Source of the DNA: Tomocerus qinae
Taxonomy: Eukaryota > Arthropoda > Collembola > Entomobryomorpha > Tomoceridae
Direction of reading: 5' to 3'
NCBI GenBank assembly: GCA_020055645.1
Contig: CM034546.1
Span: forward strand, 35,030,001 to 35,094,000
DNA length: 64,000 nt
Positions 15,690 to 56,619 of this stretch are shown piece after piece. Made by a program: the position numbers and the translations under genes. The notes below the pieces were generated by a model, which had not been told where the DNA came from, made no database searches, and saw only the letters and a program-made list of their open reading frames with translations. How positions within the stretch are numbered: the first letter of the stretch is position 1; every line of letters starts with the position of its first letter.

Positions 15690-15699
15690 CTAATCCAAC
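15690..15699 (+). repeat. Left 10-bp target-site duplication of the giant element
   Basis: CTAATCCAAC occurs here and again, same orientation, at 50,618-50,627, immediately outside the first and last bases of the 34.9-kb inverted repeat. Confidence 0.75.
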
Positions 15700-15755
15700 A
15701 CCTGTGTGAATAGTTAGACCTTTTTTTACCAATGGGATGTTATATTTCCCCCGAT
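15700..15755 (+). repeat. Left terminal inverted repeat (outer unique head)
   Basis: It runs from ACCTGTGTGAATAG through ACCAATGGGATGTT to the first 20-bp repeat unit. It matches the reverse complement of about 50,556-50,617 with a few single-base differences, including the length of the T run. Confidence 0.85.
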
Positions 15756-16856
15756 CACCTTAATTGAGATAAAATGCACCCCGATTAAATAAAATGCACC
15801 TCAATTAAATAAAATACACCTCAATTAAATAAAATACACTTTAATTAAATAAAATACACTTAATTAAATAAAATGCACTTAATTAAATAAAATGCAGCTC
15901 AATTAAATAAAATACACCTCAATTAAATAAAATGCCCCTTAATTAAAAAAAATACACGTAATTAAATAAAATGCACCTCAATTAAATAAAATACACCTTA
16001 ATTAAATAAAATGCACCTCAATTAAATATAATACACCTCAATTAAATATAATACACCTCAATTAAATAAAATGCCCCTTAATTAAATAAAATACACTTAA
16101 TTAAATAAAATGCACCTCAATGAAATAAAATACATATTAATTAAATAAAATATATATTAACTAAATAAAATACACCTTAATTATATAAAATGCACATTAA
16201 TTAAATAAAATACACATCAATTAAATAAAATGCACCTCTATTAAATAAAATACACTTCAATTAAATAAAATACACTTAATTAAATAAAATGCACCTCAAT
16301 TAAATAAAATAACCCTTAATTAAATAAAATGCACTTAATTAAATAAAATGCACTTAATTAAATAAAATGCACCTCAATGAAATAAAATACATATTAATTA
16401 AATAAAATACAATTGCATTAAATAAAATACCCCTTAATTAAATTAAATTTAACAAAATACACCTTAATTAAATAAAATACACATTGACTAAATAAAATAA
16501 GCCTTCTTTAAATAAAACGCCCCTCAATTAAATAAAATGTCCCTTAATTAAATTAAATTTAACAAAATACACCTTAATTAAATGAAATACACATTGACTA
16601 ATAAAAATAAGCCTTCATTAAATAAAACGCCCCTCAATTAAATAAAATGTCCCTTAATTAAATCAAATGAACGTTAATTAAATAATGTGCACTTCAGTAA
16701 AATAAAACGCAACCTCAATTAAATCAAATGAACATTAATTAAATAAAACGCACCTTAATTAAATGAAATGCACATAAATTAAGGAAAATACACCTTAATT
16801 AAATAAAACGCACCACAATTAAATAAAATTAACCTTAATTAAACCAAACGTACATC
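15756..16856 (-). repeat. Left 20-bp tandem array (about 55 copies)
   Basis: The unit is AATTAAATAAAATGCACCTC, with GCACC/ACACC/GCCCC variants and exact 20-bp spacing in well-kept stretches (15,784 onward). It is the reverse-complement counterpart of the array at 49,250-50,556. Confidence 0.92.
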
Positions 16857-16985
16857 ATTTATTTAAGGCAGACCTAACTTAACTAAATGATACTTGAATT
16901 AATTCAATGAGTTTCAAAACTATTTCACCAATAATTAAGTAAACATTATTTGACCCAAGGTACCAGGTTATACCAAATAAATAAA
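16857..16985 (-). repeat. Left linker between 20-bp and 171-bp arrays
   Basis: Non-repetitive segment with AGGCAGACCTAACTTAACTA, TTTGACCCAAGGTACC and CAAATAAATAAATTTT. The same sequence in reverse complement lies at 49,112-49,250, at the equivalent place in the other arm. Confidence 0.85.
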
Positions 16986-19900
16986 TTTTGCTTAAATTTA
17001 AATTCCATGAAATTCGAAACCATTTAAATTTACTAACCATTTCACGTTTATAATTTTTATTTCTAAAATCGATCTGCGCCATCACATCTGCTACCGCAGC
17101 ATTAACAACAGATCATTAGAGAGTGTCGCAGATATTATCTGACCTGATGTTAATGGTGTTATAAGAAAATGAAATTAAATTGAAATTAAATTCCATGCAA
17201 TTCGAAACCATTTCACGTTTATAATTTTTATTTCTAAAATCGATCTGCGCCATCACTTCTGCCACCGCAGCATTAACAAATGATCATTAGAGAGTGTCGC
17301 AGATATTACCTGACCTGAGGTCACTGGTGTTATAAGAAAATAAATTTCACTTGAAATTAAATTCCATGAAATTCGAATCCGGTTCACGTTTATAATTTTT
17401 ATTTCTAAAATCGATCTGCGCCATAACATCTGCCACCGCAGCATTAACAACAGATCATTAGAGAGTGTCGCAGATATAACCTGACCTGAGGTCACTGGTG
17501 TTATAAGAAAATAAATTTCACTTGAAATTAAATTCCATGAAATTCGAATCCGATTCACGTTTATAATTTTTATTTCTAAAATCGATCTGCGCCATCACAT
17601 CTGCCACCTAAGCATTAACAACAGATCATTAGAGAGTGTCGCAGATATTCCCTGACCTGAGGTCAGTGGTGTCATAAGAAAATGAATTTCTCTTGAAATT
17701 AAATTCCATGAAATTCGAATCCGATTCACGTTTATAATTTTTATTTCTAAAATCGATCTGCGCCATCACTTCTGCCACCGCAGCATTAACAAATGATCAT
17801 TAGAGAATGTCGCAGATGTTACCTGACCTGAGGTCACTGGTGTTATAAGAAAATAAATTTCACTTGAAATTAAATTCCATGAAATTCGAATCCGGTTCAC
17901 GTTTATAATTTTTATTTCTAAAATCGATCTGCGCCATCACATCTGCCACCGCAGCATTAACAACAGATCATTAGAGAGTGTCGCATATATTATCTGACCT
18001 GAGGTCCCTGGTGTTATAAGAAAATGAATTTCACTTGCAATTAAATTCCATGAAATTCGAATCCGATTCACGTTTATAATTTTTATTTCTAAAATCGATC
18101 TGCGCCATCACATCTGCCACCACAGCATTGACAAAGCATCATTAGAGAGTGTCGCAGATATAACCTGATCTGAGGTCACTGGTGTTATAAGAAAATAAAT
18201 TTCACTTGAAATGAAATTCCATGAAATTCGAATCCGATTCACGTTTATAATTTTTATTTCTAAAATCGATCTGCGCCATCACATCTGCCACCGCAGCGTT
18301 GACAAAGCATCATTAGAGAGTGTCGCAGATATAACCTGACCTGAGGTCACTGGTGTTATAAGAAAATAAATTTCACTTGAAATGAAATTCCATGAAATTC
18401 GAATCCGATTCACGTTTATAATTTTTATTTCTAAAATCAATCTGCGCCATCACTTCTGCCACCGCAGCATTAACAAATGATCATTAAAGAGTGTCGCAGA
18501 TGTTACTTGACCTGAGGTCAGTGGTGTTATAAGAAAATAAATTTCACTTGAAATGAAATTCCATAAAATTCGAATCCGGATCACGTTTATAATTTTTATT
18601 TCTAAAATCGATCTGCGCCATCACTTCTGCCACCGCAGCATTAACAACAGATCATTAGAGAGTGTCGCAGATATTATCTTACCTGAAGTCACTGGTGTTA
18701 TAAGAAAATGAATTTCATTTGAAATTAAATTCCATGAAATTCGAATCCGGTTCACGTTTATAATTTTTATTTCTAAAATCGATCTGATCCATCACTTCTG
18801 CCACCGCAGCATTAACAACAGATCAGTAGAGAGTGTCGCAGATATTACCTGACCTGAGGTCACTGGTGTTATAAGAAAATGAATTTCACTGGAAATTAAA
18901 TTCCATGAAATTCGAATCCGATTCACGTTTATAATTTTTATTTCTAAAATCGATCTGCGCCATCACTTCTGCCACCGCAGCATTAACAACAGATCATTAG
19001 AGAGTGTCGCAGATATTACCTGACCTGAGGTCACTGGTGTTATAAGAAAATAAATTTCACTTGAAATTAAATTCCATGAAATTCGAATCCGGTTCACATT
19101 TATAATTTTTATATCTAAAATCGTTCTGCGCCATCACATCTGCCACCGCAGCTTTGACAAAGCATCATTAGAGAGTGTCGCAGATATAACCTGACCTGAG
19201 GTCAGTGGTGTTATAAGAAAATAAATTTCACTTGAAATTAAATTCCATGAAATTCGAATCCGATTCACGTTTATAATTTTTATTTCTAAAATCGATCTGC
19301 GCCATCACATCTGCCACCGCAGCATTGACAAAGCATCATTAGAGAGCGTCGCAGATATAACCTGACTTGAGGTCACTGGTGTTATAAGAAAATAAATTTC
19401 ACTTGAAATGAAATTCCATGAAATTCGAATCCGATTCACGTTTATAATTTTTATTTCTAAAATCAATCTGCGCCATCACTTCTGCCACCGCAGCATTAAC
19501 AAATGATCATTAAAGAGTGTCGCAGATGTTACTTGACCTGAGGTCAGTGGTGTTATAAGAAAATAAATTTCACTTGAAATGAAATTCCATAAAATTCGAA
19601 TCCGGATCACGTTTATAATTTTTATTTCTAAAATCGATCTGCGCCATCACATCTGCCACCGCAGCATTGACAAAGCATCATTAGAGAGTGTCGCAGATAT
19701 AACCTGACCTGAGGTCACTGGTGTTATAAGAAAATAAATTTCACTTGAAATGAAATTCCATGAAATTCGAATCCGGTTCACGTTTATAATTTTTATTTCT
19801 AAAATCGATCTGCGCCATAACATCTGCCACCGCAGCATTAACAACAGATCATTAGAGAGTGTCGCAGATATAACCTGACCTGAGGTCACTGGTGTTATAA

Positions 19901-22900
19901 GAAAATAAATTTCACTTGAAATGAAATTCCATGAAATTCGAATCCGATTCACGTTCATAATTTTTATTTCTAAAATCGATCTGCGCCATCACATCTGCCA
20001 CCTAAGCATTAACAACAGATCATTAGAGAGTGTCGCAGATATTCCCTGACCTGAGGTCAGTGGTGTCATAAGAAAATGAATTTCTCTTGAAATTAAATTC
20101 CATGAAATTCGAATCCGATTCACGTTTATAATTTTTATTTCTAAAATCGATCTGCGGCATCACTTCTGCCACCGCAGCATTAACAAATGATCATTAGAGA
20201 ATGTCGCAGATGTTACCTGACCTGAGGTCACTGGTGTTATAAGAAAATAAATTTCACTTGAAATTAAATTCCATGAAATTCGAATCCGGTTCACGTTTAT
20301 AATTTTTATTTCTAAAATCGATCTGCGCCATCACATCTGCCACCGCAGCATTAACAACAGATCATTAGAGAGTGTCGCATATATTATCTGACCTGAGGTC
20401 CCTGGTGTTATAAGAAAATGAATTTCACTTGCAATTAAATTCCATGAAATTCGAATCCGATTCACGTTTATAATTTTTATTTCTAAAATCGATCTGCGCC
20501 ATCACATCTGCCACCGCAGCATTGACAAAGCATCATTAGAGAGTGTCGCAGATATAACCTGATCTGAGGTCACTGGTGTTATAAGAAAATAAATTTCACT
20601 TGAAATGAAATTCCATGAAATTCGAATCCGATTCACGTTTATAATTTTTATTTCTAAAATCAATCTGCGCCATCACTTCTGCCACCGCAGCATTAACAAA
20701 TGATCATTAAAGAGTGTCGCAGATGTTACTTGACCTGAGGTCAGTGGTGTTATAAGAAAATAAATTTCACTTGAAATGAAATTCCATAAAATTCGAATCC
20801 GGATCACGTTTATAATTTTTATTTCTAAAATCGATCTGCGCCATCACTTCTGCCACCGCAGCATTAACAACAGATCATTAGAGAGTGTCGCAGATATTAT
20901 CTTACCTGAAGTCACTGGTGTTATAAGAAAATGAATTTCATTTGAAATTAAATTCCATGAAATTCGAATCCGGTTCACGTTTATAATTTTTATTTCTAAA
21001 ATCGATCTGATCCATCACTTCTGCCACCGCAGCATTAACAACAGATCAGTAGAGAGTGTCGCAGATATTACCTGACCTGAGGTCACTGGTGTTATAAGAA
21101 AATGAATTTCACTGGAAATTAAATTCCATGAAATTCGAATCCGATTCACGTTTATAATTTTTATTTCTAAAATCGATCTGCGCCATCACTTCTGCCACCG
21201 CAGCATTAACAACAGATCATTAGAGAGTGTCGCAGATATTACCTGACCTGAGGTCACTGGTGTTATAAGAAAATAAATTTCACTTGAAATTAAATTCCAT
21301 GAAATTCGAATCCGGTTCACATTTATAATTTTTATATCTAAAATCGTTCTGCGCCATCACATCTGCCACCGCAGCTTTGACAAAGCATCATTAGAGAGTG
21401 TCGCAGATATAACCTGACCTGAGGTCAGTGGTGTTATAAGAAAATAAATTTCACTTGAAATTAAATTCCATGAAATTCGAATCCGATTCACGTTTATAAT
21501 TTTTATTTCTAAAATCGATCTGCGCCATCACATCTGCCACCGCAGCATTGACAAAGCATCATTAGAGAGCGTCGCAGATATAACCTGACTTGAGGTCACT
21601 GGTGTTATAAGAAAATAAATTTCACTTGAAATGAAATTCCATGAAATTCGAATCCGATTCACGTTTATAATTTTTATTTCTAAAATCAATCTGCGCCATC
21701 ACTTCTGCCACCGCAGCATTAACAAATGATCATTAAAGAGTGTCGCAGATGTTACTTGACCTGAGGTCAGTGGTGTAATAAGAAAATAAATTTCACTTGA
21801 AATGAAATTCCATAAAATTCGAATCCGGATCACGTTTATAATTTTTATTTCTAAAATCGATCTGCGCCATCACATCTGCCACCGCAGCATTGGCAAAGCA
21901 TCATTAGAGAGTGTCGCAGATATAACCTGACCTGAGGTCACTGGTGTTATAAGAAAATAAATTTCACTTGAAATGAAATTCCATGAAATTCGAATCCGGT
22001 TCACGTTTATAATTTTTATTTCTAAAATCGATCTGCGCCATAACATCTGCCACCGCAGCATTAACAACAGATCATTAGAGAGTGTCGCAGATATAACCTG
22101 ACCTGAGGTCACTGGTGTTATAAGAAAATAAATTTCACTTGAAATGAAATTCCATGAAATTCGAATCCGATTCACGTTCATAATTTTTATTTCTAAAATC
22201 GATCTGCGCCATCACATCTGCCACCTAAGCATTAACAACAGATCATTAGAGAGTGTCGCAGATATTCCCTGACCTGAGGTCAGTGGTGTCATAAGAAAAT
22301 GAATTTCTCTTGAAATTAAATTCCATGAAATTCGAATCCGATTCACGTTTATAATTTTTATTTCTAAAATCGATCTGCGGCATCACTTCTGCCACCGCAG
22401 CATTAACAAATGATCATTAGAGAATGTCGCAGATGTTACCTGACCTGAGGTCACTGGTGTTATAAGAAAATAAATTTCACTTGAAATTAAATTCCATGAA
22501 ATTCGAATCCGGTTCACGTTTATAATTTTTATTTCTAAAATCGATCTGCGCCATCACATCTGCCACCGCAGCATTAACAACAGATCATTAGAGAGTGTCG
22601 CATATATTATCTGACCTGAGGTCCCTGGTGTTATAAGAAAATGAATTTCACTTGCAATTAAATTCCATGAAATTCGAATCCGATTCACGTTTATAATTTT
22701 TATTTCTAAAATCGATCTGCGCCATCACATCTGCCACCGCAGCATTGACAAAGCATCATTAGAGAGTGTCGCAGATATAACCTGATCTGAGGTCACTGGT
22801 GTTATAAGAAAATAAATTTCACTTGAAATGAAATTCCATGAAATTCGAATCCGATTCACGTTTATAATTTTTATTTCTAAAATCGATCTGCGCCATCACA

Positions 22901-25900
22901 TCTGCCACCGCAGCATTGACAAAGCATCATTAGAGAGTGTCGCAGATATAACCTGACCTGAGGTCACTGGTGTTATAAGAAAATAAATTTCACTTGAAAT
23001 GAAATTCCATGAAATTCGAATCCGATTCACGTTTATAATTTTTATTTCTAAAATCAATCTGCGCCATCACTTCTGCCACCGCAGCATTAACAAATGATCA
23101 TTAAAGAGTGTCGCAGATGTTACTTGACCTGAGGTCAGTGGTGTTATAAGAAAATAAATTTCACTTGAAATGAAATTCCATAAAATTCGAATCCGGATCA
23201 CGTTTATAATTTTTATTTCTAAAATCGATCTGCGCCATCACTTCTGCCACCGCAGCATTAACAACAGATCATTAGAGAGTGTCGCAGATATTATCTTACC
23301 TGAAGTCACTGGTGTTATAAGAAAATGAATTTCACTTGAAATTAAATTCCATGAAATTCGAATCCGATTCACGTTTATAATTTTTATTTCTAAAATCGAT
23401 CTGATCCATCACTTCTGCCACCGCAGCATTAATAACAGATCAGTAGAGAGTGTCGCAGATATTACCTGACCTGAGGTCACTGGTGTTATAAGAAAATGAA
23501 TTTCACTGGAAATTAAATTCCATGAAATTCGAATCCGATTCACGTTTATAATTTTTATTTCTAAAATCGATCTGCGCCATCACTTCTGCCACCGCAGCAT
23601 TAACAACAGATCATTAGAGAGTGTCGCAGATATTACCTGACCTGAGGTCACTGGTGTTATAAGAAAATAAATTTCACTTGAAATTAAATTCCATGAAATT
23701 CGAATCCGGTTCACATTTATAATTTTTATATCTAAAATCGTTCTGCGCCATCACATCTGCCACCGCAGCTTTGACAAAGCATCATTAGAGAGTGTCGCAG
23801 ATATAACCTGACCTGAGGTCACTGGTGTTATAAGAAAATAAATTTCACTTGAAATTAAATTCCATGAAATTCGAATCCGATTCACGTTTATAATTTTTAT
23901 TTCTAAAATCGATCTGCGCCATCACATCTGCCACCGCAGCATTGACAAAGCATCATTAGAGAGCGTCGCAGATATAACCTGACCTGAGGTCACTGGTGTT
24001 ATAAGAAAATAAATTTCACTTGAAATGAAATTCCATGAAATTCGAATCCGATTCACGTTTATAATTTTTATTTCTAAAATCAATCTGCGCCATCACTTCT
24101 GCCACCGCAGCTTTGACAAAGCATCATTAGAGAGTGTCGCAGATATAACCTGACCTGAGGTCACTGGTGTTATAAGAAAATAAATTTCACTTGAAATGAA
24201 ATTCCATGAAATTCGAATCCGATTCACGTTTATAATTTTTATTTCTAAAATCGATCTGCGCCATCACATCTGCCACCGCAGCATTGACAAAGCATCATTA
24301 GAGAGCGTCGCAGATATAACCTGACCTGAGGTCACTGGTGTTATAAGAAAATAAATTTCACTTGAAATGAAATTCCATGAAATTCGAATCCGATTCACGT
24401 TTATAATTTTTATTTCTAAAAACAATCTGCGCCATCACTTCTGCCACCGCAGCATTAACAAATGATCATTAAAGAGTGTCGCAGATGTTACTTGACCTGA
24501 GGTCAGTGGTGTTATAAGAAAATAAATTTCACTTGAAATGAAATTCCATAAAATTCGAATCCGGATCACGTTTATAATTTTTATTTCTAAAATCGATCTG
24601 CGCCATCACATCTGCCACCGCAGCATTAACAACAGATCATTAGAGAGTGTCGCTGATATTATCTGACCTGAAGTCCCTGGTGTTATAAGAAAATGAATTT
24701 CACTTGCAATTAAATTCCATGAAATTCGAATCCGATTCACGTTTATAATTTTTATTTCTAAAATCGATCTGCGCCATCACTTCTGCCACCGCAGCATTAA
24801 CAATAGATCATTAGAGAGTGTCGCAGATATTACCTGACCTGAGGTCACTGGTGTTATAAGAAAATAAATTTCACTTGAAATTAAATTCCACGAAATTCGA
24901 ATCCGGTTCACATTTATAATTTTTATATCTAAAATCGATCTGCGCCATCACATCTGCCACCGCAGCTTTGACAAAGCATCATTAGAGAGTGTCGCAGATA
25001 TAACCTGACCTGAGGTCACTGGTGTTATAAGAAAATAAATTTCACTTGAAATGAAATTCCATGAAATTCGAATCCGATTCACGTTTATAATTTTTATTTC
25101 TAAAATCGATCTGCGCCATCACTTCTGCCACCGAAGCATTAACAACAGATCATTAGAGAGTTTCGCAGATATTACCTGACCTGAGGTCACTGGTGTTATA
25201 AGAAAATGAATTTCACTTGAAATTAAATTCCGTAAAATTCGAAACCATTTCACGTTTATAATTTTTATGTCTAAAATCGATCTGCGCCATCACATCTGCC
25301 ACCTAAGCATTGACAACAGATCATTAGAGAGTGTCGCAGATAATACCTGACCTGAGGTCAGTGGTGTTATAAGAAAATGAATTTCTCTTGAAATTAAATT
25401 CCATGAAATTCGAATCCGATTCACGTTTATAATTTTTATTTCTAAAATCGATCTGCGCCATCACATCTGCCACAGCAGCATTGACAACAGATCATTAGAC
25501 AGTGTCGCAGATATAACCTGACCTGAGGTCAGTGGTCTCATAAGAAAATGAATTTCTCTTGAAATTAAATTCCATGAAATTCGAATCCGATTCACGTTTG
25601 TAATTTTTATTTCTAAAATCGATCTGCGCCATCACATCTGCCACCGCAGCACTAACAACAGATCATTAGAGAGTGTCGCAGATATTATATGACCTGAGGT
25701 CACTGGTGTTATAAGAAAATGAATTTCACTTGAAATTAAATTCCATGAAATTCGAAACCATTTCACGTTTATAATTTTTATTTCTAAAATCGATCTGCGC
25801 CATCACTTGTGCCACCGCAGCATTAACAATAGATCATTAGAGAGTGTCGCAGATATTATCTGACCTGAGGTCAATGGTGTTATAAGAAAATGAATTTCAC

Positions 25901-28900: not shown

Positions 28901-29010
28901 TTAACAACAGATCATTAGAGAGTGTCGCAGATATAACCTGACCTGAGGTCACTGGTGTTATAAGAATATAAACTTCACTTGAAATTAAATTCCATTAAAT
29001 TTGAAAATAT
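16986..29010 (-). repeat. Left 171-bp satellite array (about 70 monomers)
   Basis: The landmark GATCATTAGA falls at 17,111, 17,282, 17,453, 17,624, 17,795 and 17,966: exactly 171 bp each time. Every monomer carries the dyads TGACCTGAGGTCA and GAATCCGATTC, the segment AAAATCGATCTGCGCCATCA, and the segment GAGAGTGTCGCAGATAT. It is inverted relative to the right array. The frames of about 100 codons that cross it are satellite translations, not genes. From about 25,250 to 26,900 the monomers resemble right-arm variants. Confidence 0.95.
17624..24460 (-). repeat. Left-arm higher-order repeat of 13-14 monomers
   Basis: A marked monomer (CACCTAAGCATTAACAACAG followed by ATTCCCTGACC and GTGTCATAAG) sits at landmark 17,624, 20,018 and 22,241, intervals of 2,394 (14 x 171) and 2,223 (13 x 171). 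The order of the other variants (GACAAAGCATC, AAATGATCATT, GATCTGATCCATC, ATATCTAAAATCGTTCTG) repeats between them. The third copy loses register near 24,100-24,700. Confidence 0.8.
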
Positions 29011-31550: not shown

Positions 31551-31564
31551 TAACCTAACCTAAC
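31551..31564 (+). repeat. Short CTAACC run at satellite junction
   Basis: TAACCTAACCTAAC, nearly three CCTAA units, directly abuts the first right-arm monomer. (TTAGG)n is the usual arthropod telomere repeat, but three units can arise by chance. Confidence 0.4.
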
Positions 31565-37500: not shown

Positions 37501-40500
37501 GATTCGAATTTCATGGAATTTAATTTCAAGTGAAATTCATTTTCTTATAACACCACTGACCTCAGGTCAGGTAATATCTGCGACACTCTCTAATGATCTG
37601 TTGTCAATGCTTAGGTGGCAGATGTGATGGCGCAGATCAATTTTAGAAATAAAAATTATAAACGTGAATCGGATTCGAATTTCATGGAATTTAATTTCAA
37701 GTGAAATTCATTTTCTTATAACACCATTGACCTCAGGTCAGATAATATCTGCGACACTCTCTAATGATCTGTTGTTAATGCTGCGGTGGCACAAGTGATG
37801 GCTCAGATCGATTTTAGAAATAAAAATTATAAACGTGAAATGGTTTCGAATTTCATGGAATTTAATTTCAAGAGAAATTCATTTTCTTATGACACCACTG
37901 ACCTCAGGTCAGGTTATATCTGCGACACTCTCTAATGATCTGTTGTCAATGCTGCTGTGGCAGATGTGATGGCGCAGATCGATTTTAGAAATAAAAATTA
38001 TAAACGTGAATCGGATTCGAATTTCATGGAATTTAATTTCAAGTGAAATTCATTTTCTTATAACACCACTGACCTCAGGTCAGGTAATATCTGCGACACT
38101 CTCTAATGATCTGTTGTCAATGCTTAGGTGGCAGATGTGATGGCGCAGATCAATTTTAGAAATAAAAATTATAAACGTGAAATGGTTTCGAATTTTATGG
38201 AATTTAATTTCAAGTGAAATTCATTTTCTTATAACACCAGTGACCTCAGGTCAGGTAATATCTGCGAAACTCTCTAATGATCTGTTGTTAATGCTGCGGT
38301 GGCAGAAGTGATGGCGCAGATCGATTTTAGAAATAAAAATTATAAACGTGAAATGATTTCGAATTTCATGGAATTTAATTTCAAGTGAAATTCATTTTCT
38401 TATAACACCATTGACCTCAGGTCAGATAATATCTGCGACACTCTCTAATGATCTGTTGTTAATGCTGCGGTGGCAGATGTGATGGCGCAGATCGATTTTA
38501 GAAATAAAAATTATAAACGTGAATCGGATTCGAATTTCATGGAATTTAATTTCAAGTGAAATTCATTTTCTTATAACACCACTGACCTCAGGTCAGGTAA
38601 TATCTGCGACACTCTCTAATGATCTGTTGTCAATGCTTAGGTGGCAGATGTGATGGCGCAGATCGATTTTAGAAATAAAAATTATAAACGTGAAATGGTT
38701 TCGAATTTTATGGAATTTAATTTCAAGTGAAATTCATTTTCTTATAACACCAGTGACCTCAGGTCAGGTAATATCTGCGAAACTCTCTAATGATCTGTTG
38801 TTAATGCTGCGGTGGCAGAAGTGATGGCGCAGATCGATTTTAGAAATAAAAATTATAAACGTGAAATGATTTCGAATTTCATGGAATTTAATTTCAAGTG
38901 AAATTCATTTTCTTATAACACCACTGACCTCAGGTCAGGTAATATCTGCGACACTCTCTAATGATCTGTTGTCAATGCTTAGGTGGCAGATGTGATGGCG
39001 CAGATCGATTTTAGAAATAAAAATTATAAACGTGAAATGGTTTCGAATTTTATGGAATTTAATTTCAAGTGAAATTCATTTTCTTATAATACCAGTAACC
39101 TCAGGTCAGTTAATATCTGCGAAACTCTCTAATGATCTGTTGTTAATGCTTCGGTGGCAGAAGTGATGGCGCAGATCGATTTTAGAAATAAAAATTATAA
39201 ACGTGAAATGATTTCGAATTTCATGGAATTTAATTTCAAGTGAAATTCATTTTCTTATAACACCATTGACCTCAGGTCAGGTAATATCTGCGACACTCTC
39301 TAATGATCTGTTGTCAATGCTGCTGTGGCAGATGTGATGGCGCAGATCGATTTTAGAAATAAAAATTATAAACGTGAATCGGATTCGAATTTCATGGAAT
39401 TTAATTTCAAGTGAAATTCATTTTCTTATAACACCACTGACCTCAGGTCAGGTAATATCTGCGACACTCTCTCTCAATCTGTTGTTCATGCTGCGGGGGC
39501 AGAAGTGATGGCGCAGATCGATTTTAGAAATAAAAATTATAAACGTGAATCGGATTCGAATTTCATGGAATTTAATTTCAAGTGAAATTCATTTTCTTAT
39601 AACACCATTGACCTCAGGTCAGGGAATATCTGCGACACTCTCTAATGATCTGTTGTTAATGCTTAGGTGGCAGATGTGATGGCGCAGATCGATTTTAGAA
39701 ATAAAAATTATAAACGTGAATCGGATTCAAATTTCATGGAATTTAATTTCAAGTGAAATTCATTTTCTTATAACACCATTGACCTCAGGTAAGGGAATAT
39801 CTGCGACACTCTCTAATGATCTGTTGTTAATGCTTAGGTAGCAGATGTGATGGCGCAGATCGATTTTAGAAATAAAAATTATAAACGTGGATCGGATTCG
39901 AATTTCATGGAATTTAATTTCAAGTGAAATTCATTTTTTTATAACACCATTGACCACAGGTCAGGGAATATCTGCGACACTCTCTAATGATCTGTTGTTA
40001 ATGCTTAGGTGGCAGATGTGATGGCGCAGATCGATTTTAGAAATATAAATTATAAACGTGAATCGGATTCGAATTTCATGGAATTTAATTTCAAGTGAAA
40101 TTCATTTTCTTATAACACCAGTGACCTCAGGTCAGGTAATATCTGCGTCACTCTCTAATGATCTGTTGTTAATGCTGCGGTGGCAGAAGTGATGGCGCAG
40201 ATCGATTTTAGAAATAAAAATTATAAACGTGAAATGGTTTCGAATTTCATGGAATTTAATTTCAAGCGAAATTCATTTTCTTATAACACCATTGACATCA
40301 GGTCAGATAATATCTGCGACACTTTCTAATAATCTGTTGTTCATGCTGCTGTGGCAGAAGTGACGGCCCTGATCGATTTTAGAAACAAAAATTATAAACT
40401 TGAATCGGATTCGAATTTCATGGACTTTAATTTCAAGTGAAATTTATTTTCTTATAACACCAGTGACCTCAGGTCAGGTAATATCTGCGACACTCTCTAA

Positions 40501-43500
40501 TGATATGTTGTTAATGCTGCGGTGGCAGAAATGATGGCGCAGATCGATTTTAGAAATAAAAATTATAAACGTGAATCGGATTCGAATTTCATGGAATTTA
40601 ATTTCAAGTGAAATTCATTTTCTTATAACACCATTGACCTCAGGTCAGATAATATCTGCGACACTCTCTAATGATATGTTGTTAATGCTGCGGTGGCACA
40701 AGTGATGGCGCAGATCGATTTTAGAAATAAAAATTATAAACGTGAAATGGTTTCGAATTTCATGGAATTTAATTTCAAGTGAAATTCATTTTCTTATAAC
40801 ACCAGTGACCTCAGGTCATATAATATCTGCGACACTCTCTAATGATCTGTTGTTAATGCTGCGGTGGCAGATGTGATGGCGCAGATCGATTTTAGAAATA
40901 AAAATTACAAACGTGAATCGGATTCGAATTTCATGGAATTTAATTTCAAGAGAAATTCATTTTCTTATGAGACCACTGACCTCAGGTCAGGTTATATATG
41001 CGACACTGTCTAATGATCTGTTGTCAATGCTGCTGTGGCGGATGTGATGGCGCAGATCGATTTTAGAAATAAAAATTATAAACGTGGATCGGATTCGAAT
41101 TTCATGGAATTTAATTTCAAGAGAAATTCATTTTTCTTATAACACCACTGACCTCAGGTCAGGTAATATCTGCGACACTCTCTAATGATCTGTTGTCAAT
41201 GCTTAGGTGGCAGATGTGATGGCGCAGATCGATTTTAGAAATAAAAATTATAAATGTGAAATGGTTTCGAATTTTACGGAATTTAATTTCAAGTGAAATT
41301 CATTTTCTTATAACACCAGTGACCTCAGGTCAGGTAATATCTGCGAAACTCTCTAATGATCTGTTGTTAATGCTTCGGTGGCAGAAGTGATGGCGCAGAT
41401 CGATTTTAGAAATAAAAATTATAAACGTGAATCGGATTCGAATTTCATGGAATTTAATTTCAAGAGAAATTCATTTTCTTATGAGACCACTGACCTCAGG
41501 TCAGGTTATATCTGCGACACTGTCTAATGATCTGTTGTCAATGCTGCTGTGGCAGATGTGATGGCGCAGATCGATTTTAGAAATAAAAATTATAAACGTG
41601 AATCGGATTCGAATTTCATGGAATTTAACTTCAAGAGAAATTCATTTTCTTATAACACCACTGACCTCAGGTCAGGTAATATCTGCGACACTCTCTAATG
41701 ATCTGTTGTCAATGCTTAGGTGGCAGATGTGATGGCGCAGATCGATTTTAGAAATAAAAATTATAAATGTGAAATGGTTTCGAATTTTACGGAATTTAAT
41801 TTCAAGTGAAATTCATTTTCTTATAACACCAGTGACCTCAGGTCAGGTAATATCTGCGAAACTCTCTAATGAACTGTTGTTAATGCTTCGGTGGCAGAAG
41901 TGATGGCGCAGATCGATTTTAGAAATAAAAATTATAAACGTGAAATGATTTCGAATTTCATGGAATTTAATTTCAAGTGAAATTCATTTTCTTATAACAC
42001 CATTGACCACAGGTCAGGGAATATCTGCGACACTCTCTAATGATCTGTTGTCAATGCTGCTGTGGCAGATGTGATGGCGCAGATCGATTTTAGAAATAAA
42101 AATTATAAACGTGAATCGGATTCGAATTTCATGGAATTTAACTTCAAGAGAAATTCATTTTCTTATAACACCAGTGACGTCAGGTCAGGTAATATCTGCG
42201 TCACTCTCTAATGATCTGTTGTTAATGCTGCGGTGGCAGAAGTGATGGCGCAGATCGATTTGAGAAACAAAAATTATAAACGTGAAATGGTTTCGAATTT
42301 CATGGAATTTAATTTCAAGTGAAATTCATTTTCTTATAACACCATTGACATCAGGTCAGATAATATCTGCGACACTTTCTAATAATCTGTTGTTCATGCT
42401 GCTGTGGCAGAAGTGACGGCACTGATCGATTTTAGAAACAAAAATTATAAACTTGAATCGGATTCGAATTTCATGGACTTTAATTTTAAGTGAAATTTAT
42501 TTTCTTATAACACCAGTGACCTCAGGTCAGGTAATATCTGCGACACTCTCTAATGATCTGTTGTTAATGCTGCGGTGGCAGAAATGATGGCGCAGATCGA
42601 TTTTAGAAATAAAAATTATAAACGTGAATCGGATTCGAATTTCATGGAATTTAATTTCAAGTGAAATTCATTTTCTTATAACACCATTGACCTCAGGTCA
42701 GATAATATCTGCGACACTCTCTAATGATCTGTTGTTAATGCTGCGGTGGCAGATGTGATGGCGCAGATCGATTTTAGAAATAAAAATTATAAACGTGAAT
42801 CGGATTCGAATTACATGGAATTTAATTTCAAGTGAAATTCATTTTCTTATAACACCACTGACCTCAGGTCAGGTAATATCTGCGACACTCTCTAATGATC
42901 TGTTGTCAATGCTTAGGTGGCAGATGTGATGGCGCAGATCGATTTTAGAAATAAAAATTATAAACGTGAAATGGTTTCCAATTTTATGGAATTTAATTTC
43001 AAGTGAAATTCATTTTCTTATAACACCAGTGACCTCAGGTCAGGTAATATCTGCGAAACTCTCTAATGATCTGTTGTTAATGCTGCGGTGGCAGAAGTGA
43101 TGGCGCAGATCGATTTTAGAAATAAAAATGATAAACGTGAAATGATTTCGAATTTCATGGAATTTAATTTCAAGTGAAATTCATTTTCTTATAACACCAC
43201 TGACCTCAGGTCAGGTAATATCTGCGACACTCTCTAATGATCTGTTGTCAATGCTTAGGTGGCAGATGTGATGGCGCAGATCGATTTTAGAAATAAAAAT
43301 TATAAACGTGAAATGGTTTCGAATTTTATGGAATTTAATTTCAAGTGAAATTCATTTTCTTATAATACCAGTAACCTCAGGTCAGGTAATATCTGCGAAA
43401 CTCTCTAATGATCTGTTGTTAATGCTTCGGTGGCAGAAGTGATGGCGCAGATCGATTTTAGAAATAAAAATTATAAACGTGAAATGATTTCGAATTTCAT

Positions 43501-46500
43501 GGAATTTAATTTCAAGTGAAATTCATTTTCTTATAACACCATTGACCTCAGGTCAGGTAATATCTGCGACACTCTCTAATGATCTGTTGTCAATGCTGCT
43601 GTGGCAGATGTGATGGCGCAGATCGATTTTAGAAATAAAAATTATAAACGTGAATCGGATTCGAATTTCATGGAATTTAATTTCAAGTGAAATTCATTTT
43701 CTTATAACACCACTGACCTCAGGTCAGGTAATATCTGCGACACTCTCTAATGATCTGTTGTCAATGCTTAGGTGGCAGATGTGATGGCGCAGATCAATTT
43801 TAGAAATAAAAATTATAAACGTGAATCGGATTCGAATTTCATGGAATTTAATTTCAAGTGAAATTCATTTTCTTATAACACCATTGACCTCAGGTCAGAT
43901 AATATCTGCGACACTCTCTAATGATCTGTTGTTAATGCTGCGGTGGCACAAGTGATGGCTCAGATCGATTTTAGAAATAAAAATTATAAACGTGAAATGG
44001 TTTCGAATTTCATGGAATTTAATTTCAAGAGAAATTCATTTTCTTATGACACCACTGACCTCAGGTCAGGTTATATCTGCGACACTCTCTAATGATCTGT
44101 TGTCAATGCTGCTGTGGCAGATGTGATGGCGCAGATCGATTTTAGAAATAAAAATTATAAACGTGAATCGGATTCGAATTTCATGGAATTTAATTTCAAG
44201 TGAAATTCATTTTCTTATAACACCACTGACCTCAGGTCAGGTAATATCTGCGACACTCTCTAATGATCTGTTGTCAATGCTTAGGTGGCAGATGTGATGG
44301 CGCAGATCAATTTTAGAAATAAAAATTATAAACGTGAAATGGTTTCGAATTTTATGGAATTTAATTTCAAGTGAAATTCATTTTCTTATAACACCAGTGA
44401 CCTCAGGTCAGGTAATATCTGCGAAACTCTCTAATGATCTGTTGTTAATGCTGCGGTGGCAGAAGTGATGGCGCAGATCGATTTTAGAAATAAAAATTAT
44501 AAACGTGAAATGATTTCGAATTTCATGGAATTTAATTTCAAGTGAAATTCATTTTCTTATAACACCATTGACCTCAGGTCAGATAATATCTGCGACACTC
44601 TCTAATGATCTGTTGTTAATGCTGCGGTGGCAGATGTGATGGCGCAGATCGATTTTAGAAATAAAAATTATAAACGTGAATCGGATTCGAATTTCATGGA
44701 ATTTAATTTCAAGTGAAATTCATTTTCTTATAACACCACTGACCTCAGGTCAGGTAATATCTGCGACACTCTCTAATGATCTGTTGTCAATGCTTAGGTG
44801 GCAGATGTGATGGCGCAGATCGATTTTAGAAATAAAAATTATAAACGTGAAATGGTTTCGAATTTTATGGAATTTAATTTCAAGTGAAATTCATTTTCTT
44901 ATAACACCAGTGACCTCAGGTCAGGTAATATCTGCGAAACTCTCTAATGATCTGTTGTTAATGCTGCGGTGGCAGAAGTGATGGCGCAGATCGATTTTAG
45001 AAATAAAAATTATAAACGTGAAATGATTTCGAATTTCATGGAATTTAATTTCAAGTGAAATTCATTTTCTTATAACACCACTGACCTCAGGTCAGGTAAT
45101 ATCTGCGACACTCTCTAATGATCTGTTGTCAATGCTTAGGTGGCAGATGTGATGGCGCAGATCGATTTTAGAAATAAAAATTATAAACGTGAAATGGTTT
45201 CGAATTTTATGGAATTTAATTTCAAGTGAAATTCATTTTCTTATAATACCAGTAACCTCAGGTCAGTTAATATCTGCGAAACTCTCTAATGATCTGTTGT
45301 TAATGCTTCGGTGGCAGAAGTGATGGCGCAGATCGATTTTAGAAATAAAAATTATAAACGTGAAATGATTTCGAATTTCATGGAATTTAATTTCAAGTGA
45401 AATTCATTTTCTTATAACACCATTGACCTCAGGTCAGGTAATATCTGCGACACTCTCTAATGATCTGTTGTCAATGCTGCTGTGGCAGATGTGATGGCGC
45501 AGATCGATTTTAGAAATAAAAATTATAAACGTGAATCGGATTCGAATTTCATGGAATTTAATTTCAAGTGAAATTCATTTTCTTATAACACCACTGACCT
45601 CAGGTCAGGTAATATCTGCGACACTCTCTCTCAATCTGTTGTTCATGCTGCGGGGGCAGAAGTGATGGCGCAGATCGATTTTAGAAATAAAAATTATAAA
45701 CGTGAATCGGATTCGAATTTCATGGAATTTAATTTCAAGTGAAATTCATTTTCTTATAACACCATTGACCTCAGGTCAGGGAATATCTGCGACACTCTCT
45801 AATGATCTGTTGTTAATGCTTAGGTGGCAGATGTGATGGCGCAGATCGATTTTAGAAATAAAAATTATAAACGTGAATCGGATTCAAATTTCATGGAATT
45901 TAATTTCAAGTGAAATTCATTTTCTTATAACACCATTGACCTCAGGTAAGGGAATATCTGCGACACTCTCTAATGATCTGTTGTTAATGCTTAGGTAGCA
46001 GATGTGATGGCGCAGATCGATTTTAGAAATAAAAATTATAAACGTGGATCGGATTCGAATTTCATGGAATTTAATTTCAAGTGAAATTCATTTTTTTATA
46101 ACACCATTGACCACAGGTCAGGGAATATCTGCGACACTCTCTAATGATCTGTTGTTAATGCTTAGGTGGCAGATGTGATGGCGCAGATCGATTTTAGAAA
46201 TATAAATTATAAACGTGAATCGGATTCGAATTTCATGGAATTTAATTTCAAGTGAAATTCATTTTCTTATAACACCAGTGACCTCAGGTCAGGTAATATC
46301 TGCGTCACTCTCTAATGATCTGTTGTTAATGCTGCGGTGGCAGAAGTGATGGCGCAGATCGATTTTAGAAATAAAAATTATAAACGTGAAATGGTTTCGA
46401 ATTTCATGGAATTTAATTTCAAGCGAAATTCATTTTCTTATAACACCATTGACATCAGGTCAGATAATATCTGCGACACTTTCTAATAATCTGTTGTTCA

Positions 46501-49106
46501 TGCTGCTGTGGCAGAAGTGACGGCCCTGATCGATTTTAGAAACAAAAATTATAAACTTGAATCGGATTCGAATTTCATGGACTTTAATTTCAAGTGAAAT
46601 TTATTTTCTTATAACACCAGTGACCTCAGGTCAGGTAATATCTGCGACACTCTCTAATGATATGTTGTTAATGCTGCGGTGGCAGAAATGATGGCGCAGA
46701 TCGATTTTAGAAATAAAAATTATAAACGTGAATCGGATTCGAATTTCATGGAATTTAATTTCAAGTGAAATTCATTTTCTTATAACACCATTGACCTCAG
46801 GTCAGATAATATCTGCGACACTCTCTAATGATATGTTGTTAATGCTGCGGTGGCACAAGTGATGGCGCAGATCGATTTTAGAAATAAAAATTATAAACGT
46901 GAAATGGTTTCGAATTTCATGGAATTTAATTTCAAGTGAAATTCATTTTCTTATAACACCAGTGACCTCAGGTCATATAATATCTGCGACACTCTCTAAT
47001 GATCTGTTGTTAATGCTGCGGTGGCAGAAATGATGGCGCAGATCGATTTTAGAAATAAAAATTATAAACGTGAATCGGATTCGAATTTCATGGAATTTAA
47101 TTTCAAGTGAAATTCATTTTCTTATAACACCATTGACCTCAGGTCAGATAATATCTGCGACACTCTCTAATGATCTGTTGTTAATGCTGCGGTGGCAGAT
47201 GTGATGGCGCAGATCGATTTTAGAAATAAAAATTATAAACGTGAATCGGATTCGAATTACATGGAATTTAATTTCAAGTGAAATTCATTTTCTTATAACA
47301 CCACTGACCTCAGGTCAGGTAATATCTGCGACACTCTCTAATGATCTGTTGTCAATGCTTAGGTGGCAGATGTGATGGCGCAGATCGATTTTAGAAATAA
47401 AAATTATAAACGTGAAATGGTTTCCAATTTTATGGAATTTAATTTCAAGTGAAATTCATTTTCTTATAACACCAGTGACCTCAGGTCAGGTAATATCTGC
47501 GAAACTCTCTAATGATCTGTTGTTAATGCTGCGGTGGCAGAAGTGATGGCGCAGATCGATTTTAGAAATAAAAATGATAAACGTGAAATGATTTCGAATT
47601 TCATGGAATTTAATTTCAAGTGAAATTCATTTTCTTATAACACCACTGACCTCAGGTCAGGTAATATCTGCGACACTCTCTAATGATCTGTTGTCAATGC
47701 TTAGGTGGCAGATGTGATGGCGCAGATCGATTTTAGAAATAAAAATTATAAACGTGAAATGGTTTCGAATTTTATGGAATTTAATTTCAAGTGAAATTCA
47801 TTTTCTTATAATACCAGTAACCTCAGGTCAGGTAATATCTGCGAAACTCTCTAATGATCTGTTGTTAATGCTTCGGTGGCAGAAGTGATGGCGCAGATCG
47901 ATTTTAGAAATAAAAATTATAAACGTGAAATGATTTCGAATTTCATGGAATTTAATTTCAAGTGAAATTCATTTTCTTATAACACCATTGACCTCAGGTC
48001 AGGTAATATCTGCGACACTCTCTAATGATCTGTTGTCAATGCTGCTGTGGCAGATGTGATGGCGCAGATCGATTTTAGAAATAAAAATTATAAACGTGAA
48101 TCGGATTCGAATTTCATGGAATTTAATTTCAAGTGAAATTCATTTTCTTATAACACCACTGACCTCAGGTCAGGTAATATCTGCGACACTCTCTAATGAT
48201 CTGTTGTCAATGCTTAGGTGGCAGATGTGATGGCGCAGATCAATTTTAGAAATAAAAATTATAAACGTGAAATGGTTTCGAATTTTATGGAATTTAATTT
48301 CAAGTGAAATTCATTTTCTTATAACACCAGTGACCTCAGGTCAGGTAATATCTGCGAAACTCTCTAATGATCTGTTGTTAATGCTGCGGTGGCAGAAGTG
48401 ATGGCGCAGATCGATTTTAGAAATAAAAATTATAAACGTGAAATGATTTCGAATTTCATGGAATTTAATTTCAAGTGAAATTCATTTTCTTATAACACCA
48501 TTGACCTCAGGTTAGGTAATATCTGCGACACTCTCTTATAATCTGTTGTTAATACTGCGGTGGCACAAGTGATGGCGCAGATCGATTTTAGAAATAAAAA
48601 TTATAAACGTGAAATGGTTTCGAATTTCATGGAATTTAATTTCATGTGAAATTCAATTTTCTTATAACACCACTGACCTCAGGTCAGGTTATATCTGCGA
48701 CACTCTCTAATGATCTGTTGTCAATGCTTAGGTGGCAGATGTGATGGCGCAGATCGATTTTAGAAATAAAAATTATAAACGTGAATCGGATTCGAATTTC
48801 ATGGAATTTAATTTCAAGTGAAATTTATTTTCTTATAACACCACTGACCTCAGGTCAGGTAATATCTGCGACACTCTCTAATGATCTGTTGTCAATGCTG
48901 CTGTGGCAGATGTGATGGCGCAGATCGATTTTAGAAATAAAAATTATAAACGTGAATCGGATTCGAATTTCATGGAATTTAATTTCAAGTGAAATTTATT
49001 TTCTTATAACACCATTGATCTCAGGTCAGATAATATCTGCGACACTCTCTAATGATTTATTGTTAATGCTTCGGTGGCAGAAGTAATGTCGCAGATCGAT
49101 TTTAGG
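31565..49106 (+). repeat. Right 171-bp satellite array (about 103 monomers)
   Basis: Same monomer as the left array in the opposite orientation, e.g. GCAGATCGATTTTAGAAATA, GAATCGGATTCGAATTTCAT, TGACCTCAGGTCA. Spacing is 171 bp with occasional one-base gains (31,840 region; 41,131). Near the inner edge a four-monomer block is duplicated (31,741 and 32,425), which yields two identical 86-codon chance frames. No gene is present. Confidence 0.95.
33321..48510 (+). repeat. Right-arm higher-order repeat: 36 monomers (6,156 bp), 2.6 copies
   Basis: The marker CTCTCTCAATCTGTTGTTCA occurs with landmark positions 33,321, 39,477 and 45,634: intervals of 6,156 (36 x 171) and 6,157 (one inserted T near 41,131). 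Copies 1 and 2 look almost identical base for base. Copy 3 lacks ten consecutive monomers: near 47,020 it jumps from the equivalent of 40,860 to that of 42,577. It diverges from the pattern at about 48,510. Confidence 0.88.
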
Positions 49107-49249
49107 ATTTTTTTTAAAATTTATTTATTTGGTATAACCAGGTACCTTGGGTCAAATAATGTTCGCTTAATTATTGGTGAAATAGTTTTGAAACTCATTG
49201 AATTTATTCAAGTATCATTTAGTTAAGTTAGGTCTGCCTTAAATAAATG
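49107..49249 (+). repeat. Right linker
   Basis: Reverse-complement counterpart of the left linker (GGTATAACCAGGTACCTTGG; AGTTAAGTTAGGTCTGCCTT), at the mirrored position. Confidence 0.85.
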
Positions 49250-50556
49250 ACGTACGTTTGATTTAATTAAGGTTAGTTTTATTTGATTGAGGTGCGTTTT
49301 ATTTAATTAAGGTGTATTTTCCTTAATTTATGTGCATTTCATTTATTAAGGTGCGTTTTATTTAATTAATGTTCATTTGATTTAATTGAGGTTGCGTTTT
49401 ATTTTACTGAAGTGCACATTATTTAATTAAGGTGCATTTGATTTAATTAAGGTACATTTTATTTAATTGAGGGGCGTTTTATTTAATGAAGTTTTATTTT
49501 ATTTAGTCAATGTGTATTTTATTTAATTAAGATGATTTTGTTAAATTTAATTTAATTAAGGGGTATTTTATTTAATTGAGGTGTATTTTATTTAATTAAT
49601 ATGTATTTTATTTTATTGAGGTGCATTTTATTTAATTAAGTGTATTTTATTTAATTAAGGGGTATTTTATTTAATTGAAGTGTATTTTATTTAATAGAGG
49701 TGCATTTTATTTAATTGAGGTGCATTTTATTTAATTAATGTGCATTTTATATAATTAAGGTGTATTTTATTTAATTAATATGTATTTTATTTAATTAATG
49801 TGCATTTTATTTAATCGAGGTGCATTTTATTTAATTAAGTGTATTTTATTTAATTAAAGTGTATTTTATTTAATTGAGGTGTATTTTATTTAATTGAGGT
49901 GTATTTTATTTAATTGAGGTGCATTTTATTTAATTAAAGTGTATTTTATTTAATTGAGGTGTATTTTATTTAATTGAGGTGTATTTTATTTAATTGAGGT
50001 GCATTTTATTTAATTAATGTGCATTTTATATAATTAAGGTGTATTTTATTTAATTAATATGTATTTTATTTAATTGAGGTGCATTTTAATTAATTAATGT
50101 GCATTTTATATAATTAAGGTGTATTTAATTTAATTAATATGTATTTTATTTAATTAATGTGCATGTTATATAATTAAGGTGTATTTTATTTAATTAATAT
50201 GCATTTTATTTAATTGAGGTGTATTTTATTTAATTAATGTGCATTTTATATAATTAAGGTGTATTTTATTTAATTAATATGTATTTTATATAATTGAGGT
50301 GTATTATATTTAATTGAGGTGCATTTTATTTAATTAAGGTGTATTTTATTTAATTGAGGTGCATTTTATTTAATTACGTGTATTTTTTTTTAATTAAGGG
50401 GCATTTTATTTAATTGAGGTGTATTTTATTTAATTGAGCTGCATTTTATTTAATTAAGTGTATTTTATTTAATTAAAGTGTATTTTATTTAATCGAGGTG
50501 TATTTTATTTAATTGAGGTGCATTTTATTTAATCGGGGTGCATTTTATCTCAATTA
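49250..50556 (+). repeat. Right 20-bp tandem array (about 65 copies)
   Basis: Units of GAGGTGCATTTTATTTAATT with TGTATT, TTAATG and TTAAGG variants at 20-bp spacing. Inverted partner of the left 20-bp array. Confidence 0.92.
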
Positions 50557-50617
50557 AGGTGATCGTGGGAAATATTAACATCCCATTGGTAAAAAAGGTC
50601 TAACTATTCACACAGGT
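50557..50617 (-). repeat. Right terminal inverted repeat (outer unique head)
   Basis: Ends CTATTCACACAGGT, the reverse complement of the element's first bases at 15,700. Confidence 0.85.
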
Positions 50618-50627
50618 CTAATCCAAC
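50618..50627 (+). repeat. Right 10-bp target-site duplication of the giant element
   Basis: CTAATCCAAC, identical to 15,690-15,699 and directly abutting the inverted repeat. Confidence 0.75.
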
Positions 50628-51180
50628 CACCACATACAAACGAATCCAAACAAAGGAGGTTTTGTTTTACATGAACTTTTCAGAATTTTGGATGTATAAA
50701 ATGTTCATAGATATAATATACTAGCCGGTCACAGGGCCCAGGCCCTGTTATAAATTAAGCTAGTGTGTATTCCAGGGCAATATTGCAAGATGGATAGAAT
50801 GTATTTCAGAAACTTATTTCCGTCACGCACCTGGTGCGTGAGGGGAAGCAGTTTATTTGCTTGGTCGGATAAAACAGATTAACACTTGGCAACATAGACG
50901 TAAGTTGTAGGTAAACATTCCATCCAATGCAAAAGATGGAACATCCAACCCTTTCCATCCCATCATCACCAAACACCCAAGAAAAGATCACCATCTTATC
51001 CAGCCCACCACCAATATTCAAATAAAGTAATCCATCTAATATAGCCCATCCCCAGTTCCCAAATGAAGTACCATTACAGCCATCACCAACACATCCCTTT
51101 CAGCCAATTCATACACCTGGATGGGGATGTTGGGTATAATGGATGGGATGCTTATATCTATGCTTGGCAGTATGCATAAT
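50628..51180. other. Gap between the giant element and the LTR element
   Basis: Holds a dispersed-repeat fragment at 50,722-50,790 (CTAGCCGGTCACAGGGCCCA) related to 12,848-12,909, and a small hairpin (CACGCACC TGGTGCGTG) near 50,824. Minus-strand open frames here show no recognisable domain. Confidence 0.45.
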
Positions 51181-51734
51181 TGTAAGACCCGTGGCACCAA
51201 ACAAATTAAACAAGTGATAAGATGACCTCGACAGTCTGACACCTAATTGTCATGCAATCTAATGAACTTCGCATTCCAATGGACAGCAGCTAAACTAACT
51301 CCTACCTTTTCCCATATCTTTACGTTTCTTAAGCTTAGCTAATTATAATTTGTTAGATAAAGATAATAGATATGATTTCCAATGTCACAGGCATTTTGTT
51401 TGATGTAATTGAATTGTCTCTGGTGCTCTGTGATCATTCTTGGTTCTGCTGGAGAGCTGAACACTTCAAGCTGACTGGAGAGTCTAGCAGTCTTATGCTG
51501 TGATAGCATTTGACCAACATTCGGCCTTACGGAAGATTGTATTTAGTATGTGTAAATGTTGATGAGTGAATGTGGTTTGCTTTGGTGTAAATAAAACTAG
51601 CCGTAGATTTTTACAAACCAATACCGTACTGCGAACCTTAAAATTTAATTCCATCTTTCCATTTCATTTCGTTTTCTCCTGAGCTGGTTGAGGGCTATTG
51701 TCTCTATACGATAGCCTGGCATCTAAACCTTACA
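51181..51734 (+). repeat. 5' LTR
   Basis: Starts TGTAAG and ends CTTACA (perfect 6-bp terminal inverted repeat with TG..CA). AATAAA lies at 51,590-51,595. Preceded by TAAT. Confidence 0.95.
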
Positions 51735-51741
51735 TATAGAG

Positions 51742-51759
51742 TGGCGCCCATACGAAATA
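51742..51759 (+). promoter_or_regulatory. Primer-binding site
   Basis: TGGCGCCCATACGAAATA starts 7 bp after the 5' LTR. A TGG start fits the CCA end of a primer tRNA; I cannot say which tRNA. Confidence 0.65.
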
Positions 51760-56343: not shown

Positions 56344-56619
56344 TTACATGTTTTTATGATTTCTAACTCTGTACGTGTGATTAACTGCATACATTCCATT
56401 AAATAGTTTGATTTAAACCAAGATGTATGTTGTCTTTCCGTAGCACGTATCTAATTTTTTTTTTCTCTAAGAGTTCTTCTATTTTCACATATTGATGTGC
56501 TGTATATATCCTAATATCTAATTTGCTTTTCATTATCCTTGCGTATTTGTTATATGTTTACGAAACGTATGTTTACTGGCCAGGAACACGCATGTAGTAT
56601 GTATGTAATAAATAATGCT

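Follow-up and report, generated by a model that had tools for sequence, protein, structure and literature searches.

A 34.9-kb inverted satellite block in Tomocerus qinae that is probably an insertion of a foldback-type DNA transposon

How does a large block of satellite DNA come to lie as two mirror-image arms between a pair of short direct repeats? This question is raised by a 64,000-bp stretch of the Tomocerus qinae genome, hereafter the window (C1:35,030,001-35,094,000, in an analysed genome of 334 Mb in 115 contigs). The block in question occupies window positions 15,700-50,617 and very probably arose by one insertion of a foldback-type DNA transposon that is non-autonomous and moves by cut-and-paste. 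That the element has moved, and with which transposase, we infer by comparing its ends, arms and relatives across the genome.

The boundaries of the block carry the first part of the evidence. A perfect 10-bp direct repeat, CTAATCCAAC, lies at 15,690-15,699 and 50,618-50,627 and directly touches the outermost bases of the element, both ends of which open with ACCTGTGTGAATAGTTAGACC. The probability of a 10-bp match at two fixed positions, calculated from the window composition, is 2.4e-6, in agreement with the first-pass annotation of this DNA, which had noted the abutting repeat and judged a chance origin very unlikely. An additional copy of CTAATCCAAC at 53,115 is separate from the element. 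The outermost 61 bp of the left and right ends are 95% identical, and the inward order is the same on both sides, as previously described: terminus, 20-bp array, linker and 171-bp satellite. The block had been put at 34.9 kb; its inverted organization is confirmed, with a size of 34,918 bp once the duplications are excluded, and the arms are unequal, 13,421 bp on the left and 19,057 bp on the right of a 2,440-bp spacer. The parts are as follows (window coordinates; copy numbers from Tandem Repeats Finder, TRF).

15690..15699, plus strand: left target-site duplication, CTAATCCAAC
15700..15756, plus strand: left terminus, 57 bp, starting with ACCTGTGTGAATAGTTAGACC
15757..16887, plus strand: left 20-bp tandem array
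16888..17040, plus strand: left linker, with a decayed edge monomer of the satellite as its inner part
17041..29120, plus strand: left 171-bp satellite arm (TRF, 70 copies to 29005; weaker match up to 29120)
29121..31560, no strand: spacer, without a long reading frame
31561..49105, minus strand: right 171-bp satellite arm, inverted (TRF, 102.6 copies)
33966..47028, minus strand: 6,157-bp (36-monomer) tandem duplication within the right arm (exact runs of 5,897 and 1,013 bp)
49106..49256, minus strand: right linker
49257..50560, minus strand: right 20-bp tandem array
50561..50617, minus strand: right terminus, inverted
50618..50627, plus strand: right target-site duplication, CTAATCCAAC

The 20-bp arrays span 1.1 kb or 1.3 kb, and the satellite totals 29.5 kb, from which 69 whole monomers were extracted in the left arm and 102 in the right. 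The linker had been described as a separate part. It is present on both sides, but its inner part is a decayed edge monomer, because it aligns to the satellite consensus with a score (47.5) that far exceeds the best of 300 shuffles (31). No stop-to-stop frame of 100 amino acids (aa) or more was found in the spacer (29,121-31,560), the longest listed being 92 aa; the left 570 bp of the spacer are 94% identical to the equivalent place in the copy at C1:53.4 Mb. Long inverted arms, made mainly of tandem repeats, thus surround a middle that varies among copies, an arrangement that characterizes foldback elements. A 13-bp palindrome of the satellite, TGACCTGAGGTCA, was considered as a specially conserved box and rejected, as its columns are not among the best conserved.

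A genome search by pattern, the counts of which are lower bounds, shows that the terminus is repeated elsewhere. The 20-bp sequence ACCTGTGTGAATAGTTAGAC has at least 11 exact copies, of which C1 carries seven and small contigs the other four (C21 two, C42 and C57 one each), with none listed on C2-C6; when up to three mismatches were allowed, at least 43 matches were obtained, against 21 for the reversed control. A 20-bp array lies directly inward of all 11 exact termini, which share the same first bases, and the 171-bp satellite is reached from nine of them in an orientation that is constant relative to their own end. The remaining two run out of assembled sequence, C1:16869843 after about 300 bp, where a gap begins, and C21:122014 at the end of the contig. 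The start of the terminus is sharp in nine of the 11, and the linker is present in seven of the nine copies that reach the satellite. The printed 40-bp flanks are mutually unlike, apart from ends of the same insertion, back-to-back ends on C21, and one 9/10 match beside two ends. The search for the outer terminus proposed in the first-pass annotation was thus productive, and both the constancy of the ends and their tie to the satellite hold up.

Several observations accompany these copies. All seven exact ends on large contigs fall on C1, which makes up 140 of the 334 Mb. The 9/10 match is found beside left ends, between CTAATCCAAC at window 15690-15699 and CTACTCCAAC at C1:53425204-53425213; the sequence beyond differs, and the agreement reflects either a target preference or chance. 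Two stretches of about 100 bp (92% and 81%) are common to the right flank of the window element (50719-50934) and the far left flank of the C1:53.43 copy (L038 9-683), and a 480-bp match to the same right flank occurs in L047; this similarity is probably due to a dispersed repeat. In the C42 copy (L045 6733-7739), the 20-bp array is broken by about 1 kb of GAGCAG and 13-bp repeats, which themselves form an inverted repeat.

Target-site duplications were also found at other insertions. The flanks of 14 ends were compared in all 91 pairs, for which chance would give about 0.0008 exact 9-bp matches. One such match, CAGGGGAAT, pairs C1:55568722 with C57:36112, and another, GCAAGAGCA, pairs C1:16869843 with C21:122004. 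Three elements, including that of the window, are therefore flanked by exact short duplications (10 bp in the window, 9 bp in each of the others), and these two answer the first-pass question of whether other copies have duplications of their own. A match between C21:122004 and C21:122014 is automatic, since the two ends lie back to back with one 9-bp GCAAGAGCA between them. The arms provide independent support for the re-pairing: C1:55.57 and C57 have exact satellite runs of up to 731 bp in common, and neither shares a 120-bp run with the window arms; between C1:16.87 and C21 a single difference is visible over about 300 bp, with an exact run of 251 bp, other copies being 80-92% identical to them. 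Common runs of up to 237 bp also connect C57 with the C1:53.43 copy.

Two features of C21 lie next to these ends. At C21:121948-122070 (L039 4949-5071), the two back-to-back elements with their single GCAAGAGCA look as if the second had inserted exactly at the duplication of the first. A BEL/Pao-like retroelement with an envelope-like frame, recognized by eye, lies at C21:107000-120112 (L050/L039), beside the satellite of the element that has C21:122004 as its right end.

The same end at 11 places and the three exact duplications leave almost no credence for an origin without a transposon, in which break repair would have inverted and duplicated the satellite and the 10-bp repeat would be a coincidence. 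The region that might be cited for such an origin is C1:138.69-138.76 Mb, which contains many satellite matches and no terminus in the two stretches examined. In one stretch a 20-bp array and a linker precede the satellite without the 57-bp end; in the other, the satellite flips its orientation directly, with no spacer. This satellite fits old elements whose ends have been lost, and loss of ends that leaves arrays behind is a route proposed, in the text available, for other elements with internal arrays (PMC12628747).

Both re-paired elements are interrupted by assembly gaps or contig ends. Gaps thus break copies other than that of the window, and the exact 5,897-bp repeat is a typical site of assembler error, so that an artefact has to be considered, either a false join between halves of two unrelated elements or a spurious enlargement of the right arm. 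It is nevertheless highly unlikely: the 10-bp duplication links both ends, the left end of the spacer is common to another copy, and exact runs of up to 335 bp are common to the two window arms, which have no run of 120 bp or more in common with the nine other arms or ends compared.

A transposon insertion is thus the preferred reading, and certain details of other copies weigh against it. A partial extra terminus lies just outside C1:140257165 (17 bp) and C1:60584692 (7 bp), and the linker is missing at C57, at C1:60.58 Mb and in the left arm of E140. In E140 itself both ends are present (C1:140244310 and C1:140257165), yet no duplication matches between their flanks, and the outer bases are changed; C1:53425214, C42:38835 and C21:122014 are unpaired. 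Three weaker ends have a similar plan, namely C1:140244310 (no linker), C1:81220508 (both satellite orientations) and C1:138.88 Mb, a 0.74-kb copy with a 67-bp piece of satellite and a truncated left end. Among 18 near-match loci (L020-L037), the 57-bp terminus is matched only in L022 and L023 (the E140 ends), L031 (E81) and L020, the last with 79% identity over 48 bp and no match to the 20-bp array within its 3 kb; array matches in this set occur in L022, L023 and L031 and in the sister-family loci L027 and L032.

Did the satellite travel with these ends? Over the first 1.8 kb, which covers the terminus, the 20-bp array, the linker and the edge of the satellite, the copies at C1:53425214 and C1:55568722 are identical in 1583 of 1599 aligned positions (99%; a sum of alignment rows with a one-base row omitted). 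They differ in length by 179 and 20 bp and have 29 exact runs of 120 bp or more in common, those in the satellite reaching 321 bp. Their 2-kb outside flanks have no mutual BLAST match, and in other pairs of copies, except C1:16.87 with C21, identity over the first 300 bp is 77-94%. Near-identical outer arms and common satellite blocks at two sites suggest that the satellite was probably inside the element before these copies separated. Two points count against this: later exchange between the two loci could also create shared blocks, and the order of their monomers is only partly collinear, which indicates that the arrays get reshuffled.

The arrays also change in place after insertion, as is evident from the monomers and from the 6,157-bp tandem duplication. 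The best match lies in the same arm for 58 of 69 left and 95 of 102 right monomers, a figure that the duplication itself raises for the right arm; the remainder match the opposite arm and no other locus (the comparison omitted the arms of E81, with three irregular anchors, of E138, in which the anchor word is absent, and of E60). The duplication, of which 5,897 bp are exact, is either very recent or an assembly error. It may be asked whether the element was short when it inserted and gained almost all of its satellite later in place, so that the satellite was hardly mobilised. The clustering of monomers by arm and locus, a very recent duplication, the unequal arm lengths and the 0.74-kb copy with just 67 bp of satellite speak for such growth. 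We consider it doubtful, as the insertions at 53.4 and 55.6 Mb share their long satellite runs together with near-identical 20-bp arrays, and the junction between linker and satellite is common to most, although not all, copies. The shared runs and the shared junction suggest that the satellite was inside the element before it moved.

A search with the linker gave 145 matches, and among the 40 candidates scored, out of 253, the satellite was present only on C1, C21, C42, C57 and C93. It looks like a component of the element, not an independent genomic satellite that was picked up. The proposal that a transposon end carries and spreads a genomic satellite is supported as far as the transposon is concerned, by 11 termini and three duplications, and revised as to the satellite, which appears to be the element's own.

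A possible source of the transposase was found in a sister family that starts with ACCTGTGTGAATTT.TAGACCC at C1:82831818 and C1:18912366, and with one base changed at C5:9068915. The 20-bp array of the first of these, S82 (C1:82.83), is of the same type as that of the window element; the array at C1:18.91 is related but different, and the C5 end has none. An inverted arm of S82, with its outer bases lost, lies at a distance of about 26 kb. The interior of S82 codes for a protein, represented by a 514-aa piece and further pieces downstream, that is also present in the spacer of the satellite-bearing E140 (69-78% identity, E 6e-49); it also contains two Ulp1-type protease frames (PF02902, E 1.7e-12 and 7.3e-10). 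The 514-aa piece has nine further genomic matches, two of them at one locus. Relatives are situated at C1:14.22, C1:128.86, C1:139.50 and C1:82.84 Mb. An element that shares the termini and carries a gene, sought since the first-pass annotation, is thus represented by a gene-bearing relative with similar termini, and not by an intact autonomous copy with exactly these termini. A transposase in the spacer of the window element was rejected, as its matches to S82 fall outside the gene pieces.

The protein was compared among four sources (S82, E140, L055 and L056). The motifs D[SA]TG, CxSH and TxGxxExF each occur in three of the four, and DFSxA in one by pattern and in two more by eye; no DDE-like or C-x-S-H motif is common to all four. 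These blocks presumably resemble the DDE and C/D-x-x-H pattern of the Mutator group. L055 and L056 have weak OTU matches under the Pfam cut-off, and an NCBIfam search with the internal protein gave nothing useful. Three results tell against the proposed reading: the analysis turned up no autonomous copy that is intact and has exactly these termini, the Mutator domain PF10551 was not matched in Pfam by any internal protein piece tested, and none of the 59 genomic PF10551 matches lies within 380 kb of these ends, so that a Mutator transposase adjoining the ends was rejected. Pfam reported no PHD finger in the protein pieces tested, which are incomplete.

Among known foldback systems, FB/NOF of Drosophila melanogaster has long inverted repeats composed of short tandem repeats and makes duplications of about 9 bp. 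We know of no 171-bp satellite tier in FB/NOF, and to our knowledge its arms are far shorter. Closer in plan, by description, is Tetris of Drosophila virilis, a non-autonomous foldback element in which a terminal domain is followed by tandem repeats inside the inverted repeats; its repeats of about 220 bp expand to satellite arrays within the element, its inverted repeats reach 1,735 bp and its duplications measure 8-10 bp (PMC4079207, as far as the available text goes). The few monomers of Tetris contrast with the 13.4- and 19.1-kb arms of the window element, with about 70 and 103 monomers and an extra, outer 20-bp array. Rehavkus elements, in the portion of the source at hand, have 9-bp duplications, a minisatellite near the terminus, a PHD finger and terminal inverted repeats of 26-400 bp (PMC6446971), and Rehavkus-1_TC of Tribolium is described as having a 164-bp satellite in its inverted termini, mostly as 5 or 8 monomers (PMC10218199). 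The 9-bp duplications of two elements (10 bp in the window), the arrays near the terminus and the arthropod hosts are shared with this group; the arms of 13-19 kb and the roughly 70 and 103 monomers are not, and only the 57-bp non-repeated terminus would fit the range of inverted repeats described.

We read the element as a foldback, probably Rehavkus-like and of the Mutator group. Formal filing as Rehavkus is not justified, as no PHD finger was reported, the arms lie beyond the range of the group, and the likeness is one of description, not of protein comparison. Another transposase group with foldback members, such as Mutator proper (e.g. Phantom) or the P group (e.g. Galileo), is an unlikely but real candidate. 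Tm1 of root-knot nematodes illustrates it: in the text available, the inverted repeats of this foldback are composite and vary in their number of tandem motifs, its duplications are 9 bp long, and its transposase, of the Mutator (Phantom) type, has aphid and mosquito proteins as its best matches (PMC3169594). Like the elements studied here, it occurs in miniature and gene-bearing classes with common ends; it differs in its motifs, mostly 14 bp in 1-9 copies, and in a transposase-bearing form of 2.6 kb (PMC3169594). The 59 Mutator-domain matches in the genome would also suit such a group, whereas the protein pieces inside the elements lack a PF10551 match and have a motif set of their own (no search aimed at a P-type transposase was made).

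The element resembles Mutator-like elements of arthropods in its cut-and-paste character, inverted termini and target-site duplications, and exceeds the maxima that a 2026 survey states for them in its available text, a longest complete element of 9,972 bp and a longest inverted repeat of 1,193 bp (PMC13359780); the copies counted there had an intact transposase, and the window element, at 34,918 bp with arms of 13-19 kb, lacks one. No larger foldback, satellite-bearing or Rehavkus element was found among the listed titles and abstract openings of open-licence papers. The first-pass annotation knew of no FB-like element this large or with nucleosome-length satellite arms; the size is indeed unusual, but satellite termini have precedents in Tetris and Rehavkus-1_TC. 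Satellite-length repeats in foldback termini were therefore already known, and it is mainly the scale that is unusual: the window element works like Tetris or Rehavkus-1_TC, but is several times larger and has two tiers of repeats.

We propose that a transposase made elsewhere would recognise the termini, possibly aided by the repeated sites in the 20-bp arrays, and would cut out or copy the whole unit and insert it with a 9-10 bp duplication. This transposase would probably come from a member of the Mutator group that resembles Rehavkus; E140 and S82 contain pieces of relatives of this member. The satellite would travel within the transposon; after landing, the arrays may grow, shrink and homogenise by unequal exchange within and between arms, and old copies would lose their ends and leave an ordinary-looking satellite. 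As a tentative extension, which we put forward as a possibility short of even likelihood, the unit of transposition may be the satellite itself, capped by transposon ends and tens of kb long, jumping whole and seeding oriented mirror-image arrays, each of which would become an ordinary satellite locus on losing its 57-bp ends.

The surroundings of the element contain other repeats and genes. About 550 bp to its right lies a long terminal repeat (LTR) retrotransposon (51179-57698) with a frame at 53251-56343 that is Gypsy-like by eye; its two 558-bp LTRs are identical, which indicates a recent insertion. Broken transposase frames with DDE_Tnp_4 and HTH_Tnp_4 matches (Pfam) are located at 7168-8924 on the minus strand, near a 39-bp tandem repeat of 24 copies (5586-6518). 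A frame at 62900-63754 on the plus strand matches glycosyl hydrolase family 17 (PF00332, E 2.5e-7), which is unexpected for an animal-like genome.

Arguments about how satellites spread to new chromosomal sites have usually relied on short internal repeats or on decayed remains. In the present case, a large satellite block retains both ends and the scar of its insertion, and its siblings are found at several stages: near-identical arms, the 35-kb form, a 0.74-kb form nearly without satellite, and arrays without ends. This series permits direct tests of whether the satellite was carried at insertion or grew later, and of the pace at which arms homogenise. In any inverted satellite array it is worth looking for Rehavkus or foldback ends. 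That other copies have the same ends and arms suggests that a mobile element can bring satellite DNA to new places.

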